Below are positions 622 through 10,531 of a DNA stretch of 10,531 nt, piece after piece. The first letter of the stretch is position 1, and every line of letters begins with the position of its first letter. Below the pieces are notes generated by a model. The model did not search any database. It was not told where the DNA came from and saw only the letters and a list, made by a program, of their open reading frames with translations. The DNA comes from Candidatus Eiseniibacteriota bacterium. Lineage in GTDB: Bacteria; JAFGKV01. The stretch covers positions 1 to 10,531 of the forward strand of contig JALOPK010000088.1 in the NCBI GenBank assembly GCA_025453925.1, written 5' to 3'. The position numbers and the translations under genes are program-made.

Positions 622-2187
622 ATGTCTACGTACCGGACGACGTTCGCTCTCCTAGTTGTGGGCCTCCTAGCTGGAGGATGCGGGGTGTCCTCGCACTATC
701 GCTTCGCGTACCCGAACATGTTGAGACAGGGCCCCTATCCCCGTGATCTACGGTTCGTGACCAGAGACGGCTACGAGTACAAACTCCGTGCACAAGGAGC
801 GGACTCCACCTCAATCCAAGGCGCAGGCGGTCGTCGCAGAGAGCCGACCGCTGATTGGGTTCAGTTCACAGGCTCGGTGTGCGTGGACAGTATCGTGCTG
901 GCAGCTGAACCGAGTGTCGGAGCGCTGCGGGGCGCGCTCACCCTCGCGAGCTTCGTCGCAGCAGCGGCAGCGACCCAAGGCGCCTTCAAAGGAGGTGAGG
1001 GCACGCTGACTGCAGATTTCTATCATCCGACCGGTGGCGGCGGCGGATCCTGCCCATTCGTCTACAGCAACGATGGACGAGGCTGGGTGTTCGAAGCCGA
1101 GCCGTTCGCAGGCGCGGTGTTCCGAGGAATGCAGCGAACCACCGTTGATCGGCTGGATCATTCGGGCCTTACGAAGGGAATCGCCCGGCTCAAGATCACC
1201 TGTGAACTGGACGAAACCGAGCACATCGAACAGCTCAGGTTCCAGGTCATAGATCACGCCGTGGGGACCATCATCATTCCCGCGGAGGACGGGCGGCTCT
1301 GCGTCCTCGGCGCGGTCGAATCCCCCATCTGGGCAATGGATTCTGATGGGTTGGATGCCATGGACTTCATCACCGAGTCGGATGAGCAGGAGTGGTCAGC
1401 TAGCCTCGCGGGGCGGGATCCGGACCAACCTGATCAGGTCCGCGCGGGGCTGACCATCGCCTTTCAACGACCGCCCGACGCAACCGAAGCAGTCCTTGTG
1501 CTTGATCTCAAGAACACCCCCTGGGCGACGCGCATGCTGCGGGAAGTGCTCGAACTCAACGGCCGGGAACTGGAGTCGTGGTACACGACCTTGAACACCT
1601 CGCCCCTGGTGCGGAGTGCGTTCCTGAACGCCCTGAACCGGGAGGCGATGCTGCAGGTCGCCATCAGGGAGGATGATTCGTGGCGCCCCTGCGGCCGAGT
1701 GGGCGCGGTGGGCCACGGGGTGAACAAACTGACCGCCGTCGTCGTTGACCTCGCCGGTTCTACCGGTGACACGGTGACCATCCGGCTCGACTCGGGAGCG
1801 GGGTTCTGGGCCATCGACCGCATCGGTATCGGGTTCTTCCCGACGGATCCCGTGGCAGTGACCACACTCGAACCTACGATGGCCCGTGACCAAGACGGCC
1901 ACGATCTGCGCGACGCGCTGCGTTCGGTGGATGGGGTGTACTACGAGATGCCGACCACGCAGGACTGGGCAGAGCTGGAGTTCACGGTTCCGCCGGCAGG
2001 GATCTCATGCCAGAGATCCTTCGTGCTGGAGACGACTGGCTACTACAAGATGCACATCCATCCGGAGGGAGAACCTCGCCAGGACCTCCTGGCGAGGTTC
2101 ATGGTCGAGCCCGGAGCATTCGCCGCCTATTCCATGGAGCGCTACCGGGAGGTCGTCTCCGCACAGGCAGAACGTGGGCAACCCTGA
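622..2187 (+). CDS. Predicted lipoprotein of an uncharacterised family
   Basis: The 521-residue protein begins with a lipoprotein signal: hydrophobic residues 8-19, then LAGGC with the lipidated Cys at 20. The -3 residue is Ala rather than the usual Leu, a mild deviation. Residues ~40-118 hold a small domain (RFVTRDGYEYKL, then a Trp-containing strand and an Ala-rich hydrophobic stretch at 100-117) resembling the start of other bacterial lipoproteins of unknown role. After a Gly run at 138-142 comes CPFVYSNDGRGWVFEAEPF (144-162), with FAGAVFRGMQRT and ELDETEHIEQLRFQVIDH. I recall this pattern from unnamed proteins of little-studied Gram-negative phyla. Near the end, RSFVLETTGYYKMHI (465-479) recurs in the same kind of protein. 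The stretch between is beta-rich with no catalytic motif I can name. It is likely anchored to a membrane facing the periplasm or outside. A perfect 13-bp hairpin lies in its 3' end. Confidence 0.8.
   Translation: MSTYRTTFALLVVGLLAGGCGVSSHYRFAYPNMLRQGPYPRDLRFVTRDGYEYKLRAQGADSTSIQGAGGRRREPTADWVQFTGSVCVDSIVLAAEPSVGALRGALTLASFVAAAAATQGAFKGGEGTLTADFYHPTGGGGGSCPFVYSNDGRGWVFEAEPFAGAVFRGMQRTTVDRLDHSGLTKGIARLKITCELDETEHIEQLRFQVIDHAVGTIIIPAEDGRLCVLGAVESPIWAMDSDGLDAMDFITESDEQEWSASLAGRDPDQPDQVRAGLTIAFQRPPDATEAVLVLDLKNTPWATRMLREVLELNGRELESWYTTLNTSPLVRSAFLNALNREAMLQVAIREDDSWRPCGRVGAVGHGVNKLTAVVVDLAGSTGDTVTIRLDSGAGFWAIDRIGIGFFPTDPVAVTTLEPTMARDQDGHDLRDALRSVDGVYYEMPTTQDWAELEFTVPPAGISCQRSFVLETTGYYKMHIHPEGEPRQDLLARFMVEPGAFAAYSMERYREVVSAQAERGQP
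2071..2100 (+). repeat. Perfect 13-bp inverted repeat, 4-nt loop
   Basis: The left arm GAACCTCGCCAGG (2071-2083) and right arm CCTGGCGAGGTTC (2088-2100) are exact reverse complements around the loop ACCT. It lies inside the lipoprotein coding sequence (encoding EPRQDLLARF), about 90 nt before the stop. No T-run follows it, so it is not a classical intrinsic terminator. RNA copied from either strand would form a very stable hairpin. Confidence 0.85.
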
Positions 2188-2346
2188 TGCCGCGGCCGGG
2201 ACGTGGGTCACGCAGGTTGAAGCGACAGAGCTTCTGCCCTCCTCAACGCAAAGCGTGCCACAACCCTGAGGCGTCTCACCCACAAGGACGCCCAATGCAT
2301 AACGGGCAAGGAACCCCCGGCGGCCGGGTCTTCTCCGGACCGGGCA
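2188..2346. other. Convergent intergenic spacer with weak hairpins
   Basis: This spacer separates the ends of the lipoprotein gene (plus) and methyltransferase gene (minus). It contains GGCGTC (2270-2275) and its complement GACGCC (2287-2292) around an 11-nt loop, plus a GC-rich stretch around 2318-2345 with short CCCGG/CCGGG complementarity. Either could aid termination, but no T-tract is present. No plausible small gene was seen. Confidence 0.3.
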
Positions 2347-3147
2347 CTACCGGCCAGATCGGGGAGCCTGTTGGGGCTTGAGGGCAAGGGTGGCGATGAA
2401 GGTCGCGGTGAAGCGCTCGAGAACTTCCCGATCATCGTCTCCTGAACGATCCTCGAAGAATCCCGCGAGAACGAAACCAGCTTCGATCTGTCCCCCGATC
2501 TGCTCCTCGAGGGTGTGACTGAACTCCAGCGGTGAACCCTGCTCGAGCCTCGCACACTGCTCTGCCTCTGAGAGGAACTCGGCATCGGAGTAGGGCAGCC
2601 GATGCTTCGCCTCGAGGACCCCACGTTCGTAGGCATCCCCGTCAAAGACATAGAGGATGGGGTTTGTGATGCCGGACATGATGCGCCCTCCAGGCCTCAA
2701 CACCCGATGCGCTTCTCTCCAGACCGGCCGGATCTCGGGCACGAATACATTGGAAACGGGATGCACGACAAGGTCAAACGACGCGTCGCCGAACGTGGAG
2801 AGACACCGCATATCTCCCTCGACCGTGCGGAGTGGGAGGCGGTGGAGATCCGCCAGCGAACGATCCCTTTCCAGCTGCCTGGGCGAGTTGTCGAAGACGG
2901 TGACCCTCGCGCCCGCAGCGGCCAGGAGGGGACCCTGTTGACCGCCACCCGAGGCAAGGCACAGCACTTCGGCCCCGACCAACGCGGGGAACCAGGCGGC
3001 CGGCACCGGCCTCGACGGCGTGAGGAGAATCTGCCACTCTCCCCGGCGCGCGGCGGCAATCTGCACGTCACTCACCGGGATGGTCCACCGATTGCCCAGG
3101 TCAACCTGGCGATCCCACGCGTGGCGATTGTGTGCCCGAACATCCAT
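2347..3147 (-). CDS. Class I SAM-dependent methyltransferase
   Basis: This 266-residue protein is a Rossmann-fold methyltransferase of the Methyltransf_11/UbiE-like type. The N-terminus [19 protein letters not shown] is typical of a recognisable soluble subfamily. Motif I is VLCLASGGG (61-69), preceding the strand VTVFDNS (82-88) whose Asp86 should bind the SAM ribose. EGDMRCL, FDLVVHP and the post-motif [14 protein letters not shown] follow. I chose the ATG at 3147 because homologues of this type begin there and GGGAG lies 7 nt upstream. The frame stays open to 3219, but those 24 extra residues look non-conserved. The substrate cannot be told from sequence. It lies 163 nt downstream of the small membrane protein gene on the same strand, so co-transcription is possible but not certain. 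Confidence 0.88.
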
Positions 3148-3310
3148 GACGAGACTCCCGTGTCGGTATGGCCGTTCTCGCGCCGCTCGCCCACAGCCGT
3201 CCAGGGCAAGATTGCCCATGTTCGCACTTGGCAGAGCGCCGCGGCTGCTGACCGGCGGGGGCCAGTGAGCAGCCGGGCGGACACGGCGTCAAGTCGTCGC
3301 GAGCACCGGG

Positions 3311-3736
3311 CTATGCCGTCTTTGCCTCCTTGTGCCGGTCGGCAAGAAGCCATACGGCCAGGTTTGCGACCCCGAAGCCGAGAACCACCAGTCCAGCAAT
3401 GAGCAAGAGCCCCATCTGGGCCCACGGTTGCGCGAAGGCGGGCACAAGCCCAGGAGCATGGCCGACCACGTCCTCGGGGATCGCCCTCATGAACACCCGC
3501 AGCATCAGGGGAATGATCACCAGGACAAGGCCGAAGACCGTGCCGAAGATGCCACGCCGGAGCGAACTGCCGCGGGTATGCGCTTCCAGCATGCGCAACG
3601 CTTCGCGTTGTGTATCGGGACCAGACGAAGGTGACTTGGCGATCTCCAGATAGGTGCGGGTGAGTCGCCGTCTTCGCTCGAAGGCGAGCAAGGCGGCAAG
3701 GAACACCAGCGGCATCAACACGAGCACATGAAACAC
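3311..3736 (-). CDS. Small three-helix membrane protein, unknown function
   Basis: The start is a GTG at 3736, chosen because a strong GGAGGT ribosome binding site lies 5-6 nt upstream. The 141-residue product has three predicted membrane helices: residues 3-19, 62-83 and 107-131. Between the first two is a basic, probably cytoplasmic stretch (ERRRRLTR... and a short helix EALRMLEAHTRG). The protein ends in a charged tail, DRHKEAKTA. It vaguely recalls small membrane proteins found beside ECF sigma genes (the DUF6249-like type), but I cannot assign it to a family. It is transcribed divergently from the ECF sigma gene across a 173-nt shared upstream region, which makes it a candidate target or accessory of that sigma system. 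This link is inferred from position only. Confidence 0.75.
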   Translation of the reverse strand: MFHVLVLMPLVFLAALLAFERRRRLTRTYLEIAKSPSSGPDTQREALRMLEAHTRGSSLRRGIFGTVFGLVLVIIPLMLRVFMRAIPEDVVGHAPGLVPAFAQPWAQMGLLLIAGLVVLGFGVANLAVWLLADRHKEAKTA

Positions 3737-3740
3737 AGGG

Positions 3741-3748
3741 CACCTCCA
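3741..3748 (-). promoter_or_regulatory. Strong ribosome binding site fixing a GTG start
   Basis: On the minus strand the sequence reads TGGAGGTG followed by CCCT and the GTG start at 3736. The near-consensus Shine-Dalgarno at proper spacing is the main reason to accept the GTG start of the small membrane protein. Confidence 0.65.
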
Positions 3749-3789
3749 GTTTGGGATTGTCGCCGTCTCCGCCTTATGAGTATCGGGAA

Positions 3790-3818
3790 TTGGCGGATTG
3801 TTTCAGGGAACCTATGTT
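3790..3818 (+). promoter_or_regulatory. Candidate sigma-70-type promoter before the ECF sigma gene
   Basis: TTGGCG (3790-3795) and TATGTT (3813-3818) are separated by 17 nt; each matches four of six consensus bases. It would give a leader of about 85 nt before the sigma GTG at 3910. Consensus promoters vary in such lineages, so this is only a candidate. Confidence 0.25.
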
Positions 3819-3838
3819 GGGCGGGATGAAACCGGGAA

Positions 3839-3851
3839 CGCACTTTGTGCG
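3839..3851. repeat. Small inverted repeat in the divergent promoter region
   Basis: CGCAC-TTT-GTGCG is a 5-bp perfect inverted repeat between the divergent small membrane protein and sigma factor genes. It could be a regulator site or a leader hairpin, but a repeat this short can arise by chance. Confidence 0.25.
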
Positions 3852-3909
3852 ACTAATGCGGATGAAGCTCAGGATCAATGCATAGCCCGGAACCGCCTGG
3901 AGTTGTGAA

Positions 3910-4428
3910 GTGGGACGCGACGGGGACACGCTCGTAGACCAGCACAAGGACCTCGTGTACCATGTCATCAACCGCATGATCCCCGACCCGCAGTATCATG
4001 ATGACCTGTTCCAGGAGACGTTCCTCAACGTGGCGAGGAGTATGCCCACGTTTCGTCGCGAATCGAAGCTGTCGACGTGGATCTACCGCGTGGCGCAGAA
4101 CACCTGCCTCTCGCATATCAGGCGCATGCGTGGGGATCCGGCCTACTCGCTGGACGAGTGGCGCGAGGAGGATCTTGAGTCACAGACCATCCCTGCCATC
4201 GCCGACAAGGCCGAGGAGGGAGAGAGGCGGACGACTTTGGATCACGCGCTCGACCGGTTGCCCCTCAAGTACCGCATGCCCGTCACGCTCTACTACCTTG
4301 AAGAACTCAGCTACAGGGAGATCGCCGCGTGTCTCGCGATCCCCATGGGAACCGTGAAAACCAATATCCACCGCGGCCTGATGCGACTTCGGACCGTTCT
4401 CGGGGAGGACCCTGATGCGCATTTGTGA
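3910..4428 (+). CDS. ECF (sigma-70 family, group 4) RNA polymerase sigma factor
   Basis: The 172-residue protein has only the two domains of an ECF sigma factor. Region 2 spans residues 8-72, with DDLFQETFLNVAR (31-43, the core-polymerase-binding and -10 recognition helices) and STWIYRVAQN (55-64). Region 4 spans 108-161, with helix-turn-helix LSYREIAACLAIPMGTVKTN that should read the -35 element. The linker (73-107) is acidic. The GTG at 3910 is the only reasonable start: an in-frame TAG lies at 3883 and GGAG sits 7 nt upstream of the GTG. The N-terminus is a little short, but region 2.1 (LVDQHKDLVYHVINRM) is complete. The stop overlaps the anti-sigma gene by 14 nt, implying translational coupling. 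The membrane anti-sigma factor presumably holds it inactive until an envelope signal arrives; its regulon cannot be read from the sequence. Confidence 0.95.
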   Translation: MGRDGDTLVDQHKDLVYHVINRMIPDPQYHDDLFQETFLNVARSMPTFRRESKLSTWIYRVAQNTCLSHIRRMRGDPAYSLDEWREEDLESQTIPAIADKAEEGERRTTLDHALDRLPLKYRMPVTLYYLEELSYREIAACLAIPMGTVKTNIHRGLMRLRTVLGEDPDAHL

Positions 4429-5008
4429 CGACGAACTGGTCAAGCTCGACTATGTGAATGGGGAACTCGGCCTCGCGCGACGGCTGCGCTACGCGCGGCA
4501 TCTGGCTCACTGTCCGACGTGTGCCCGTGCCGTCGAGGAGTTGGCCACGATCTCGTCACTGGTTCGCGCAATTCCTCAGCCACGCGTTTCACCGGACCTC
4601 ATTGCACACACCACGCAGTCACTCGCCGCAGTCCAACCAGGCACCAAGGTGGCGCCAAGGGAGATCGGGTGGTTCCTTGAGGCCTGGGAGCAACCCCGGG
4701 TGGTGGCGGCCGGTGCTCTGGCGGCAGCAGGCGTGACTGGCCTCGTGATCACCCACCTGAACGGTACCCTCAAAGCTCTGCTGGCGACGGTGTCCACGCT
4801 TGACGTCTGGGCTCTGCTCGTCGGCGTGCCGTCTCAGCCGGACAGCACGATTCTGGTGCCCCTAGGCGCGGTACTCCTGATTGCCGCCTTGGTGTCTGTC
4901 CCATCGCTCATCGACAACGCCATAGGGCTTTCCCTCCACCGTGCCGTCGTGAGGTCATGCGCGCAGGGCAGCAACGGCTCCGCTGATGCTCTTCGGCGGC
5001 GCATCTGA
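4415..5008 (+). CDS. Membrane zinc-finger anti-sigma factor (ZAS/zf-HC2 type)
   Basis: This 197-residue protein starts inside the end of the sigma gene. GGGGAGG at 4402-4408 lies 6 nt before the ATG at 4415. Its N-terminal domain follows the anti-sigma pattern: CDDELVKLDYVNGELG, then His29-X3-Cys33-X2-Cys36 (HLAHCPTC), the zinc-binding signature of ZAS domains. Cys4 may be the fourth ligand. A ~50-residue linker leads to a hydrophobic segment at 96-115 and another at 146-165, with a further hydrophobic stretch at 121-138. Two or three membrane passes are likely, with the sigma-binding domain in the cytoplasm. The role is inferred from fold and gene order: it binds and blocks the ECF sigma factor encoded just upstream. 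The C-terminal half matches no sensor domain I know. Confidence 0.88.
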   Translation: MRICDDELVKLDYVNGELGLARRLRYARHLAHCPTCARAVEELATISSLVRAIPQPRVSPDLIAHTTQSLAAVQPGTKVAPREIGWFLEAWEQPRVVAAGALAAAGVTGLVITHLNGTLKALLATVSTLDVWALLVGVPSQPDSTILVPLGAVLLIAALVSVPSLIDNAIGLSLHRAVVRSCAQGSNGSADALRRRI

Positions 5009-5023
5009 GGGGTCAGGACCCCT
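5008..5023. terminator. Hairpin between convergent ends (bidirectional terminator candidate)
   Basis: AGGGGTC (5008-5014) and GACCCCT (5017-5023) are exact complements, giving an effective 6-bp GC-rich stem with a 4-nt CAGG loop. The arms start at the last base of the anti-sigma stop and end one base before the stop of the phosphatase remnant on the other strand. The lack of a strong T-run makes intrinsic termination plausible rather than certain. Confidence 0.5.
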
Positions 5024-5572
5024 TCATACCATCTCCATCGCCACCATGGTGGTATCGTCGAGCGGCTCCAGCAGCGCCGCGATGCGCCCTTACCGCAGCA
5101 TCAATCTGCGCAAGGATCTGGTCCAGCGGCGATCGGCAGGCTCTCATCCCGATCACGTCGTGGCGCCCTGTGACGAACGCCTCGCCCCCGGAGGCGAACG
5201 CGTCCACCCGCCCGTTGGTGTGAACGAAGAGGGATCTCCGGCGTGAGTGCCTATCAACCGCTCAGTGAACTGCCCTCCCGGGCGGATGCCCAGCGGCCTG
5301 CCCGCAGCGGAGGAAGACACGAAATCCCCTGCCGACCAAATGACATGGAGGGCATGGTGGCCCGCGTTGAACGGGCAACCCACGCCTCCTCCTTCCCGAG
5401 GGTCATGGCAACTGGACTGCGTTGCAGTGCGATGGGTCGTGCGTGAGTATGAAGGAATGGGCGAGGCCGTCGGCGAAACCAGCGGTGGTCTGTCCCTCTC
5501 GCCCACCACGCGGATGTCGTCGTGCACCGGGACATGCCGCTGCTTCCACCGGAGGTTCCGCGGCGGCCTCAA
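5024..5572 (-). pseudogene. Decayed SpoIIE/PP2C-type serine phosphatase
   Basis: Reading the minus strand across frames recovers the C-terminal half of a SpoIIE-type phosphatase. HDPREGGGVGCP and FNAGHHALHVI (FNAGHH at 5371-5354) match the family's 'DP..G...YANAGHNPPL' core. AAGRPLGI matches 'GLPLG', and LFVHTNGRVDAF matches 'LLLYTDGVTEA'. LDQILAQIDAAVRAHRG is the usual helix, and LDDTTMVAMEMV before the TGA at 5026-5024 matches the terminal 'DDITLVVL'. The frame changes after GGAGAT near 5233 and changes back near 5092-5077, so single-base indels are likely. The catalytic TDG Asp reads as Asn. The N-terminal half (family 'GGDxYD' and 'GDVSGHG' motifs) is not recognisable in 5408-5572 and is probably deleted or decayed; support is firm only for 5024-5407. 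Intact family members dephosphorylate anti-anti-sigma proteins. Sequencing errors are an alternative to decay. Confidence 0.65.
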
Positions 5573-5949
5573 TTGTGTCCTCTGTGCAAGGGTCGTACCA
5601 GTGCGCCGTCACACCACCGCGATCCCCTGTCATGGAGAGAACTGCCCACCAGCGCTTGACCCTCCGCCGTTCACCATCCGGCGGTCAGGCATACGGCGCC
5701 TATACCAAAGGCTCGAGCCCGTGGATCGGGGCCGGCACGGGTGGACAGGCCTGTCCGGAACTGGACGCCGTTGTTCCTGCGCGTCGACCGAAAGGCCCCG
5801 AGCCACGTTATCTTCCGGGTTCCCGGAGGCATGTGGCGAGGTAGGAAGTACTCCAGACGTGCATAAGCCTCTCGACCGCGGTAGATTGCGTTCGTTCATG
5901 CTCAGAATTCCTGCGCGTGGTCCACCTCGTGAGAAGGAGGAAGTGCGCG
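5573..5949. other. Non-coding stretch upstream of the second barrel gene
   Basis: No frame here has convincing protein-like sequence; open frames on both strands are rich in Arg, Pro, Ser and Gly and look like GC-driven noise. Two inverted repeats are visible: CCGCCG (5664-5669) with CGGCGG (5679-5684), and TCCGGG/CCCGGA around 5814-5827. It may hold further decayed phosphatase sequence and the promoter of the gene at 5950, but I could not pick out convincing -35/-10 boxes. Confidence 0.4.
5935..5940 (+). promoter_or_regulatory. Ribosome binding site deciding the ATG at 5950
   Basis: AGGAGG lies 9 nt before the ATG at 5950. This favours that start over an in-frame upstream start at 5917, which would put a charged extension before the signal peptide. 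Confidence 0.65.
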
Positions 5950-6774
5950 ATGAGTGGTGCCCGTTCTCAGAAAGCGGTCGCGCTCTCCATCATTCTCGCC
6001 TTGGCGCAGGGTGCCTGGGCCCAATCGCTGCTCCTGCAGACGCCGCCCGAACGGGTGAACCTCGTGGGCGTCCGTTTCCTCCATCCCGACCTGGCGCATG
6101 GGCCGGACGCGTCGCTGACGTCAGGCGTCTATGAGTTCTCTGTCGCGTTCGCCGTCTCCTCTCGCTCCGCCGTAGGAATCACCCTCCCCCTTGTGAACAG
6201 CGACCCATCGGACCTCGAGAGTACGCGCGCGCTGGGCAACCTGTCTCTCCAATTCCAGAAGAGAACGGCGGGTGTCGGGCGGCGGCAGTCGTCTTTCTCC
6301 ATCGGGATCACGATTCCGACGGCCGATGAAGAGAACTTCTGGACCCTGATCTATGGGTGGGTGACGGACTATCCGTGGCTTCACAAGTATGCGGCCGAAG
6401 TGATGACGCTGTCCTGTGGTGTGCAGGGCCAATGGCCGGCGTTCCGAACGGGCTCGGTGCGACTCGACGTCGGCCCGCATGTCATGGTTCCCACTGGGGA
6501 GGGAGGGGACACCGAGATCACTCTACGGTACGGGTTGGGGCTCGCTGCAGGGAGCCCAGTAATCCAGGTTCTCGCGGAGTTCGTCGGCTATGTCTGGTTG
6601 ACCACGGAGTCCGGCCCATTCGAAGATAGATCCACCCACTGTGCCGCAATCGGCGTGGTCCTTCCGGCGGGGGCGATCCGGCCGTCGCTGTTCTACGAGA
6701 AGTACCTGAATGGGGATCTAAGCGAGGATGTCGACGGCATTCTGGGCATCAAGCTCCAGGTGGCAACCCGATAG
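5950..6774 (+). CDS. Secreted outer-membrane beta-barrel protein
   Basis: The 274-residue protein starts with a classical Sec signal peptide: basic n-region SGARSQK, hydrophobic core AVALSIILALAQ, and cleavage after GAWA-QS near residue 25. No lipobox Cys is present. The mature part is a chain of amphipathic strands with Gly and aromatic turns: YEFSVAFAVSSRSAVGITLPL, NLSLQFQKR, FSIGITIPTADEE, VRLDVGPHVMVPTGEG, ITLRYGLGLAAG, VIQVLAEFVGYVWL, IRPSLFYEKYLNGD and ILGIKLQVATR. The 'GITLPL...GNLSLQ...GITIPT' rhythm resembles the broad family of small outer-membrane channels (Phenol_MetA_deg/'transporter' type), but I would not claim a substrate. The ATG at 5950 is chosen because of AGGAGG upstream and the intact signal peptide. 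It stands alone, with a long non-coding region in front. Confidence 0.75.
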   Translation: MSGARSQKAVALSIILALAQGAWAQSLLLQTPPERVNLVGVRFLHPDLAHGPDASLTSGVYEFSVAFAVSSRSAVGITLPLVNSDPSDLESTRALGNLSLQFQKRTAGVGRRQSSFSIGITIPTADEENFWTLIYGWVTDYPWLHKYAAEVMTLSCGVQGQWPAFRTGSVRLDVGPHVMVPTGEGGDTEITLRYGLGLAAGSPVIQVLAEFVGYVWLTTESGPFEDRSTHCAAIGVVLPAGAIRPSLFYEKYLNGDLSEDVDGILGIKLQVATR

Positions 6775-6805: not shown

Positions 6806-6841
6806 ATGACGGTGCACTTGATCAACTGGCAGGCCGCATGA
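6806..6841 (+). other. Possible 11-codon leader ORF coupled to the DUF3159 gene
   Basis: An ATG at 6806 with GGAAAGG 9 nt upstream opens a frame encoding MTVHLINWQAA. It ends in a TGA that overlaps the ATG of the next gene (ATGA at 6838-6841). The main gene has only a weak AGG in front of its start, so translational coupling from this mini-frame is plausible. Such short frames are also common by chance. Confidence 0.25.
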
Positions 6842-7524
6842 GCATGTTCGCGAAGACGGTCCGCGAACTCGCTGAGGAGTTTCGCGCGGTACTCGGGGGG
6901 AGGGGAGGCCCCATTGACTCAGTGGTTCCACCCTTGGTTTTCGCGGTAACGGCACGATTCTCCCCCATCCTGCATGCCGGGGCGGCTGCCGTCGGGTGCG
7001 CAGCGCTCATTGCCGGCCTCCGTCTCGCTCGCGGGCACCGGTTGGTCTACGCGGGGATCGGCATGGCAGGTGTCGTGGTGGCGGCCGGCCTCTCATGGTC
7101 ACTCGGCCGTGCCGAAGCCTACTTCCTTCCCGGAATCGTCAGCAATGCGTTCACGATCCTGCTGTGTCTCGTGAGCGTTGTGGTGCGGCGGCCGATGGTT
7201 GCCCTGACCAGCCACCTCGCCAGGCGATGGCCCGCGCGATGGTATCGGCACCCGAAGGTTCGCCCGGCATATGATGAGGTCACACTTGCCTGGGCGACGT
7301 TCTTCAGCCTCCGGCTCGCGGCCCAGGTTGTGCTATTCCGGCGGGGATCGGCGGGAACCCTTGCCGTGGTGCAGTTCCTCACCGGATGGCCGTCCACCGT
7401 GCTGCTTCTCGCGGTGTCGTACCTCTACGGCCTACGCCGACTGCGCGCCCTCGGCGGCCCCAGCGTCGAGGAATTCAAGACCGGCAGCCCGCCGCCATGG
7501 AGTGGCCAGCCAAGAGGATTCTGA
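6838..7524 (+). CDS. DUF3159 family integral membrane protein
   Basis: The 228-residue protein matches the DUF3159 pattern. A cytoplasmic lead (VRELAEEFRAVLGGRGG) is followed by PIDSVVPPLVFAV (25-37), where the family has 'GG.RG.ve...P.lvF'. The family hallmark GRAEAYFLPGI lies at 90-100, followed by the N103 region. Later come RWYRHPKVRPAYDEVTLAWATFF and FSLRLAAQVVLF, matching the family's 'rdprlrrAYt.aTllWa..fa.RlavQ..ly'. About five or six membrane helices are predicted (roughly 29-45, 47-64, 70-88, 98-116, 155-168 and 180-200). The function of the family is unknown; it is best known from Actinobacteria. The ATG at 6838 overlaps the stop of a possible leader frame; a second ATG at 6844 is an alternative. 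It is 63 nt after the barrel gene and may share its transcript. Confidence 0.85.
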   Translation: MSMFAKTVRELAEEFRAVLGGRGGPIDSVVPPLVFAVTARFSPILHAGAAAVGCAALIAGLRLARGHRLVYAGIGMAGVVVAAGLSWSLGRAEAYFLPGIVSNAFTILLCLVSVVVRRPMVALTSHLARRWPARWYRHPKVRPAYDEVTLAWATFFSLRLAAQVVLFRRGSAGTLAVVQFLTGWPSTVLLLAVSYLYGLRRLRALGGPSVEEFKTGSPPPWSGQPRGF

Positions 7525-8854: not shown

Positions 8855-10435
8855 TCAGGCAAAAACCCGGTAGTCCATCTCCTGGAAGATCGTGTCCCGG
8901 GCCTCCAGCTCCTCGATCCATCTCGGTTCCAGCCGATTCTCCACGATCTGCACGTAGATGCCGTTGAAGTGGTGAAGGTGGTCCCTGGTTCTCTTCTCGG
9001 CGTACTCGACCACGGTTCCCGCGTTCATGATGAACGCCCAATCCGACGCCTGGGCCAGCATCAGCTCACGGGCAGCCTGGTTCAGCGCCCGCCGGGTGAG
9101 CCCCTCGCTCTCCGGATACCTGCAGGCCAGTTCGATCATCCGTTCTTCCGCCTTGTGGAGATGCCGGTAAATCCAGTCGTTGCGCTCATTGAGCCAGACA
9201 TCGAAGTAGCCCCCCGCGCCCCATGATGACCGCTGAGGGACCACCTCCTGGTTCTGAGGGTATCGCTCCAGATAGGCGTGTGCCGTGAGCGGCTGGATCC
9301 CACGATCATCCTGGGCCAGTTCCCGCATCAACGCTTCGAGAAACAACGGGCCTTCGAACCACCAGTGACCAAAGAGCTCCGCGTCGTAGGGGGCGACGAT
9401 GACGGGCGGGCGGCCCAGCACTTCGGCCAAGTGTCGGCTCTGAACGAGCCGGTTGCGCACGAAGTCGGCGGCGTGGAGGGCGGCCTTGGCGCACGCGGCC
9501 CCGGGGTCGTAGACGGCCTTTCGGTGCAACGGAACCCTTCCGGTGACTCGGTGGTACTTCAGTCCGACATTGCGGCGAACGCCGTCCCGCATCAAGAACG
9601 GGCGGATCTGGTCGTACTCCGCGTCAAACCCCAGGTCACGGTAGAACTCGCGGTAGTCGGGATCGCCAGGGTACCCCGCATCCGCGGACCACACCTGGTG
9701 ACTCGTCTCTGGGTCGCGTGCGAACGCCGCAACGCCGTTGGGACAGTAAACCGGAGCATACACGCCCCGCCGGGGTCGGGGTGAGGCGAACAGCAGACCA
9801 TGGGTATCCAGGAAGAAGTAGCTGATCCCTTCCTCGGCAAGGATGGTCTCTAGCCCGGGGGCATATGCGCATTCGCCCAGCCAGATGCCGGAAGGCTCAC
9901 GGCGGAAGTGCTTGCGGTAGTTCCGAACGGCAGCTCGAACGTGGGCCCGCTTGCCCTGGTCGGTCGCACAGAAGGGGAGGATAGGGTGGGTCCCGGGGCA
10001 CGTGACGATCTCAATCAATCCCGCATCCTGGAAGGCTCCGAACCCCGCCACCGCCGTGCACCAGCGCTGACGCAGCTCGCGAATCATGGCATACTGGCGC
10101 GCATACATCGCGGTCACCGGTTCCCGCTCGGTGCCCCTGGTCCGCGAGGTCTCGAGCGCGAGCAGTGCATCCATCCTGTCCAGATGGCGCCGGTACCGTT
10201 CCTGCAGGAGTGGATCCACCAGCATCTCGCACAGAGAAGGGGTCAGCGACATGGTGAAGGTGAACGGGACCGCATCCCGCTGGAGCCTGCCCAGCACGCC
10301 CAACAGAGGGTAGTAGGTCTCGTCCAGTGCTTCGAACAGCCAGTTCTCCTCCAGAAACTCCTCATGCTCGGGATGGCGGACAAATGGAAGATGGGCATGG
10401 AGCATGAGCAGCAGATGCCCTGTCGGCGCGATCAT
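8855..10435 (-). CDS. GH57 1,4-alpha-glucan branching enzyme
   Basis: This protein (526 residues from the chosen start) cuts alpha-1,4-glucan and rejoins the chain by an alpha-1,6 bond, building branched glycogen-like storage glucan in the cytoplasm. It belongs to glycoside hydrolase family 57. The N-terminus has HLLLMLHAHLPFVRHPE (7-23). The catalytic Glu is Glu188 in GIWLGECAYAPGLE and the acid Asp is Asp351 in APYDAELFGHWWFEGP; these positions agree closely with characterised GH57 branching enzymes of Thermus and Thermococcus. The C-terminal helical DUF1957 domain (WGAGGYFDVWLNERNDWIYRHL and ASDWAFIMNAGT) marks a branching enzyme rather than an amylase. I chose ATG 10435 because it gives that numbering; the frame stays open through ATG 10507 to the window edge, so a longer start is possible. 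No good Shine-Dalgarno precedes either. tyrS follows 36 nt downstream. Confidence 0.93.
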   Translation of the reverse strand: MIAPTGHLLLMLHAHLPFVRHPEHEEFLEENWLFEALDETYYPLLGVLGRLQRDAVPFTFTMSLTPSLCEMLVDPLLQERYRRHLDRMDALLALETSRTRGTEREPVTAMYARQYAMIRELRQRWCTAVAGFGAFQDAGLIEIVTCPGTHPILPFCATDQGKRAHVRAAVRNYRKHFRREPSGIWLGECAYAPGLETILAEEGISYFFLDTHGLLFASPRPRRGVYAPVYCPNGVAAFARDPETSHQVWSADAGYPGDPDYREFYRDLGFDAEYDQIRPFLMRDGVRRNVGLKYHRVTGRVPLHRKAVYDPGAACAKAALHAADFVRNRLVQSRHLAEVLGRPPVIVAPYDAELFGHWWFEGPLFLEALMRELAQDDRGIQPLTAHAYLERYPQNQEVVPQRSSWGAGGYFDVWLNERNDWIYRHLHKAEERMIELACRYPESEGLTRRALNQAARELMLAQASDWAFIMNAGTVVEYAEKRTRDHLHHFNGIYVQIVENRLEPRWIEELEARDTIFQEMDYRVFA

Positions 10436-10531
10436 CACGATTCCGTCTCGCTCTGCGAGTTCCCGCCCAACCGTGCCTGCCATATGGACGGGGAACACGC
10501 CTGCCATCTCCCCGAACGGTCGAATCCCCCT

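Follow-up and report, generated by a model that had tools for sequence, protein, structure and literature searches.

The locus and the genomes compared

The window, i.e., the whole stretch of 10,531 nucleotides that was analysed, corresponds to contig C17 in full. This contig belongs to G000, a metagenome-assembled genome of 3.9 Mb in 502 contigs with a completeness of 82%. The window encodes an intact ECF sigma factor and its zf-HC2 anti-sigma factor, on whose gene the remnant of a SpoIIE-type phosphatase gene converges tail to tail. Upstream of the remnant lie a non-coding hairpin and a sigma54-type promoter motif and, on the opposite strand, an orphan gene and a DUF3159 gene (Table 1). The comparison set consisted of one genome of the same genus (G001) and one more of the family (G002), the phylum being represented by these genomes and G000. 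Two contigs of G001 were used: C147 (7.8 kb; locus L014), which carries an intact SpoIIE gene, and C284 (locus L015), which carries the ECF/anti-sigma genes.

The genes neighbouring the remnant are open along their full length, as judged from the ORF list and Pfam, and the contig is therefore not generally error-ridden. Its ends (1-189 and 10420-10531) match the ends of the G000 contigs C171 (97%) and C326 (88%), respectively, which probably reflects unresolved assembly joins or strain variants. Two genes of the window (622-2187 and 3-605) have no Pfam match and no DNA-level match in G001, and an inverted repeat is located within coding sequence at 2071-2100 (opposite-orientation self match, 93% over 30 bases).

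Table 1. Features of the window discussed in the text, with their positions, strands, and supporting evidence
Feature	Position	Strand	Evidence or remark
ECF sigma factor gene, intact	3910..4428	+	PF04542 3.9e-18, PF08281 1.2e-15
zf-HC2 anti-sigma factor gene, intact	4415..5008	+	Pfam; convergent with the fossil
Palindrome GGGGTCAGGACCCC between two convergent stop codons	5009..5022	.	Sequence
SpoIIE-type phosphatase remnant, final 114 codons and stop	5024..5368	-	Frameshift-aware alignment, 54% identity
Junction between the hairpin and the fossil; the relative's codons 1-611 are missing	5369..5460	-	Alignment at shuffle level
Non-coding hairpin, ~108-112 nt	5461..5572	-	Conserved apical core 5500-5540, covarying outer stem
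Sigma54-type -24/-12 motif TGGTACGACCCTTGCA, GG-N10-GC	5585..5600	-	Predicted +1 near 5574
Orphan gene, putatively exported	5953..6774	+	N-terminal signal-like stretch by eye; between leader and DUF3159
DUF3159 gene	6838..7524	+	Pfam; a homologue also neighbours the intact SpoIIE gene in G001

A remnant of a SpoIIE-type phosphatase

Four C-terminal motifs of SpoIIE/PP2C phosphatases follow one another on the minus strand: FNAGHH and GRPLG in one frame, HTNGRVDAF in a second frame, and DDTTMVAMEMV-stop in the first frame again, with the stop codon at 5024-5026. Pfam and NCBIfam scans of separate single frames gave no SpoIIE match, an empty Pfam scan being expected for a frame-broken fragment, and a frameshift-aware local DNA-to-protein aligner (own script) was written after they had come up empty. 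In the resulting alignment, window 5368-5027 corresponds to residues 612-725 of the intact G001 protein, with 62 of the 114 residues identical and a score of 271. By comparison, 60 dinucleotide-preserving shuffles of the locus scored 44±5 (maximum 61), and the best segment of the window clear of any overlap with the fossil reached 56 in the same type of alignment. Both frameshifts were located by the aligner itself, at 5234 (-1) and ~5071 (+1). When 13 further SpoIIE proteins from the three genomes were aligned, the highest score was 118. The remnant is therefore a specific relative of the G001 protein, and the same comparison rules out G000's own SpoIIE paralogues as the source of the fossil.

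An earlier, sequence-only reading of this DNA had named all of these motifs in the same order across two frames, placed the frame switches near 5233 and 5092-5077, noted the change of the TDG Asp to Asn together with the absence of the N-terminal metal-site motifs, and proposed a frameshift-aware search as a check; the alignment agrees with these switch points. The extent that it had given to the phosphatase (5024-5572) held for 5024-5368 but not for 5461-5572, a non-coding hairpin that had been included because an ORF starts there.

The remnant belongs by homology to PF07228 (SpoIIE/RsbU/RsbP PPM serine phosphatases, in their HAMP-linked membrane form), as seen from the frameshift-aware alignment to an intact member, and it likewise contains NAGH, GRPLG, T(D/N)G, and DDTTMV in order. 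In contrast to the enzymes of this family, it retains only 114 of 725 codons, and these are not in one open frame: the SpoIIE domain is interrupted by two frameshifts, and 611 codons are absent. The invariant Asp residues of PP2C phosphatases are located in motifs 1, 2, 8, and 11 (PMC6213207). In the remnant this set is incomplete, motifs 1 and 2 being deleted and the TDG of motif 8 being replaced by TNG (Asp to Asn), so that the DD of motif 11 alone is kept. Judged from its sequence, the segment at 5024-5368 is a pseudogene whose codons 1-611 are gone, a homologous remnant rather than a functional SpoIIE member, and no active phosphatase can result from it.

At the three codon positions, identity to the G001 relative is 0.68/0.81/0.51 for the remnant and similar, at 0.76/0.85/0.48, for DUF3159, a functional neighbour. 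This profile suggests that selection probably acted on the gene during most of the period after the split of the lineages, and most of the divergence of the remnant probably arose while it still did so.

It is extremely improbable that assembly or sequencing errors have disfigured a gene that is intact in the organism. Such errors might be expected in a metagenome-assembled genome of 502 contigs and 82% completeness, and the matches of the window ends to other contigs of G000, at 97% and 88%, hint at a strain mixture. However, the two frameshifts, the change of the catalytic Asp, and the loss of 611 codons would all have to be erroneous next to neighbours that are open. Moreover, no intact orthologue was found elsewhere in G000, where the best candidate shows 37% identity, although the assembly may lack 18% of the genome.

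The intact relative and the missing N-terminal part

The intact relative in G001 is a 725-codon ORF (L014:5544-7721), in which translation probably starts at the GTG at L014 5646. The protein comprises a weak Cache-like match (below the Pfam cut-off), a HAMP domain, and a SpoIIE domain that matches PF07228 over 191 of its 192 positions. Residues 1-611 of this protein left no trace in window 5369-5960 (score 34 in the frameshift-aware alignment, shuffles 41±6). The SpoIIE segment that remains is separated from the conserved unit upstream of it by ~90 bases in the window, compared with ~1.95 kb in the relative.

The sequence-only reading had also proposed a search for an intact copy at the same place in related genomes. 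The intact copy does exist in G001, on a contig other than that of the anti-sigma gene. It is located beside DUF3159, as in the window, together with DUF5916 and aminotransferase genes, and no sigma factor gene was seen on its 7.8-kb contig. The orphan gene of the window has no match in Pfam or NCBIfam and no homologue in G001 or G002, and G001 has no gene at the corresponding place.

The ECF sigma/anti-sigma neighbourhood

The ECF sigma/anti-sigma pair beside the fossil, reported already from the sequence alone, is real: the sigma factor has both the Sigma70 r2 and r4_2 domains, the anti-sigma factor is of the zf-HC2 type, and their genes belong to the same operon and overlap at 4415-4428. 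The fossil converges on the anti-sigma gene and thus is not part of its operon, and the promoter-like site and the leader of the fossil lie on the side away from the anti-sigma gene. Between the stop codons of the two converging genes lies a palindrome that is possibly a shared terminator, albeit one with no U-tract, or a small palindromic repeat. Similar palindromes (GGGGTC-NN-GACCCC-like) occur in G001 at L015 114 and 225, i.e., two within 240 bases.

On C284 of G001, a SpoIIE tail of ~27 codons (L015 1-240; score 90, shuffles 33±4) likewise follows the anti-sigma gene, tail to tail. Beyond these codons C284 runs into unrelated sequence, the intact gene being located on C147. In addition to the intact gene, G001 thus possesses a second and more deeply decayed remnant in the form of the tail on C284. 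As the G001 anti-sigma gene also adjoins a SpoIIE tail, the adjacency of anti-sigma and SpoIIE genes is old.

In SigB/SigF switching, the partners of the SpoIIE/RsbU/RsbP phosphatases are an anti-sigma kinase and a STAS antagonist (PMC7522486). The present locus resembles these systems (RsbU/RsbV/RsbW and SpoIIE/SpoIIAA/SpoIIAB) in that a phosphatase of the same family adjoins a sigma/anti-sigma pair. It differs from them in the ECF type of the sigma factor, in the anti-sigma factor, which is a zinc-finger (zf-HC2) protein and not a HATPase-domain kinase such as SpoIIAB/RsbW, and in convergent transcription; further, no gene for an anti-sigma kinase (HATPase) or a STAS antagonist was recognised in the window or on the contig of the relative.

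The sequence-only reading had concluded that the phosphatase represented a second control layer of the ECF pair, acting by partner switching and subsequently lost. This is very unlikely. The adjacency in the window, and its age as indicated by the tail in G001, speak for such a layer, but the convergent orientation and the separate promoter-like site argue against it, as do the zf-HC2 type of the anti-sigma factor, the lack of a recognisable kinase or STAS gene beside the fossil, and the position of the intact relative, which is not beside any sigma gene.

The tail on C284 also bears on the origin of the remnant, which could be partly mosaic: its last 15 codons would come from a C284-like, anti-sigma-linked tail and the rest from a C147-like, DUF3159-linked gene, with the +1 frameshift made at the junction. 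The stretch at 5027-5068 matches C284 at 40/42 positions and C147 at 33/42, the stretch at 5069-5110 matches them at 22/41 and 26/41, respectively, and the step coincides with the frameshift at ~5071. A mosaic is nevertheless rather doubtful, as the stretches are short, the comparison involves three sequences only, and the first stretch encodes a conserved protein motif.

At a larger scale, window 2324-5068 is an identity mosaic relative to L015. Against a background of ~74% (tyrS/GH57 region), identity is ~95% in 2400-4450 (methyltransferase, membrane gene, and ECF; 87-94% at third codon positions), ~70% in most of the anti-sigma gene (65% at third positions), and ~94% in 4980-5068, after which the match is lost. 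As far as these identities tell, the ECF block looks like a recent exchange between lineages. Other very stable folds are predicted on both strands at window ~3170-3280, between the methyltransferase and membrane genes, and at L015 ~1905-2070, likewise between the methyltransferase and membrane genes.

A conserved hairpin upstream of the fossil

Window 5468-5600 matches the DNA upstream of the intact SpoIIE gene of G001, and a related hairpin unit is also located upstream of a DUF5916/CBM9-like gene in both G000 and G001. Exactly two copies are detectable in each genome, one before SpoIIE and one before DUF5916. The hairpin is 105-112 nt long, and its apical core is nearly invariant in all four copies; the stem sequence of the SpoIIE copies differs from that of the DUF5916 copies with pairing kept, and 12 base pairs have changes on both sides. 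The covariation score of 0.405, for an RNAalifold structure that was fitted to the same four sequences, was reached by none of 500 shuffles (0.200±0.035) and drops to 0.04-0.125 when the partners are slid. Compensatory changes of this kind, as selection on structure would produce in a structured RNA, are thus present in four sequences, and they may stand for few events, given that these sequences come from two genomes and form two groups of two.

Folded as single strands, the copies have z-scores of -2.4 to -3.7; when 3516 segments of this DNA are folded, 0-1.3% of them fold better. The copy of the fossil folds no worse than the one before the intact G001 gene, and a strong fold is likewise predicted for the opposite strand of three of the four copies. 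At the DUF5916 loci, the hairpins of G000 and G001 are 87% identical without gaps, compared with 77% for the coding sequence and, in ungapped columns of the flanks, 53% for the remainder of the leader and 51% upstream. At the SpoIIE loci, the hairpins are 85% identical versus 41-49% in the ungapped flanks, despite the dead gene in G000. The leader sequence from the hairpin to the start codon is not conserved.

A function of 5461-5572 as N-terminal coding sequence of SpoIIE was ruled out, as the segment is unlike residues 1-611 and its core contains a 1-nt indel in G001; a high-copy repeat was ruled out by the presence of two copies per genome. The hairpin has no Rfam 15 match at gathering score, and a match to SNORD23 (22 bits versus a gathering score of 64) was dismissed as chance. 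An Infernal search of 384 other genomes with strict filters did not detect it, and viral contigs (exact pattern), plasmids, and phages likewise yielded no copy. No convincing intrinsic terminator was present 3' of the hairpin.

The sigma54-type promoter motif

Each hairpin is preceded by a motif that resembles the sigma54 -24/-12 consensus TGGCAC-N5-TTGC (as cited in PMC3333780), a likeness noticed after looking at the same sequences. The GG-N10-GC spacing of sigma54 promoters is present in all four copies. The sequence TGGYACGNNNYTTGCA is exact in three of them and has two mismatches in the fourth; TGGYACG-N4-TTGCA likewise fits three copies, the motif of the fossil reading TGGTACG-N4-TTGCA. 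The distance between motif and hairpin is nearly equal in all four copies, and the hairpin begins within ~5 nt of the transcript start predicted from the motif. In contrast to sigma54 promoters in general, the putative sites described here come with a conserved hairpin where the transcript is predicted to start. No motif for a sigma54 activator was found in the loci compared.

The inverted-repeat shape of the hairpin, the location of its copies in intergenic DNA, and the strong folding of the opposite strand in three of four copies would also suit a MITE- or REP-like element, small and either mobile or palindromic, that acts as DNA and not as RNA. This explanation is unlikely, since there are only two copies per genome, in conserved gene contexts and on the same strand relative to the gene, and since the promoter-like motif occurs at a near-fixed distance and the apical core is more conserved than the stem. 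The near-fixed place of the hairpin at the predicted start, its constant strand, its near-invariant core, and the kept pairing point instead to an RNA. On the four sequences available, the segment at 5461-5572 is regarded as a candidate leader or small RNA.

Proposed history of the locus and function of the hairpin

With high probability, the locus combines a pseudogene with a conserved upstream unit. The ancestral gene would have encoded a membrane sensor phosphatase, with the weak Cache, HAMP, and SpoIIE domains seen in the relative, and would have faced the anti-sigma gene. A deletion of ~1.9 kb with respect to the relative presumably eliminated the first 611 codons along with most of the 5' leader; the two frameshifts and the TDG-to-TNG change could have arisen before or after it. 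The upstream unit survives intact, with the sigma54-type motif and a predicted start at the foot of the ~110-nt hairpin. Sigma54 RNA polymerase would transcribe the unit, the copy of the fossil included, and the hairpin might act as RNA, either as a small RNA or as a 5' leader that puts two genes in one regulon. The chances that the upstream unit is indeed a sigma54-transcribed RNA are about even.

The lack of conserved sequence between the hairpin and the start codon argues against a classical riboswitch with an expression platform and against a direct translation switch; it favours a small RNA, or a 5' leader that binds a protein or affects the stability of the transcript. The survival of the hairpin beside a dead gene is compatible with an independent function as a small RNA or, more simply, with a recent death of the gene. 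Like structured leader RNAs and sigma54-dependent small RNAs, the hairpin combines a near-invariant core with a varying paired stem at a predicted transcript start. It differs from them in having no Rfam family and no conserved expression platform, and in being found as two copies per genome in one genus.

More tentatively, the hairpins could constitute a new structured RNA of a Fermentibacteria genus, which, with its sigma54-type promoters, would place the sensor phosphatase and the DUF5916 protein (probably exported) in one regulon, and which would have outlived the fossil gene as a free-standing small RNA. The chances are somewhat against a new RNA family that still works at the fossil locus.

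Significance

As such, the pseudogene is ordinary: several SpoIIE paralogues are present in these genomes, which evidently lose some of them. It is of value as a control: the coding part has decayed, and the promoter-like motif and the hairpin upstream have not. At the DUF5916 loci, the hairpin is more conserved than the adjoining coding DNA and far more than the remainder of the leader. Should the hairpin prove to be an RNA, a candidate phylum that has been little studied would gain a new regulatory element, and the type of its promoter would predict how it is switched on.
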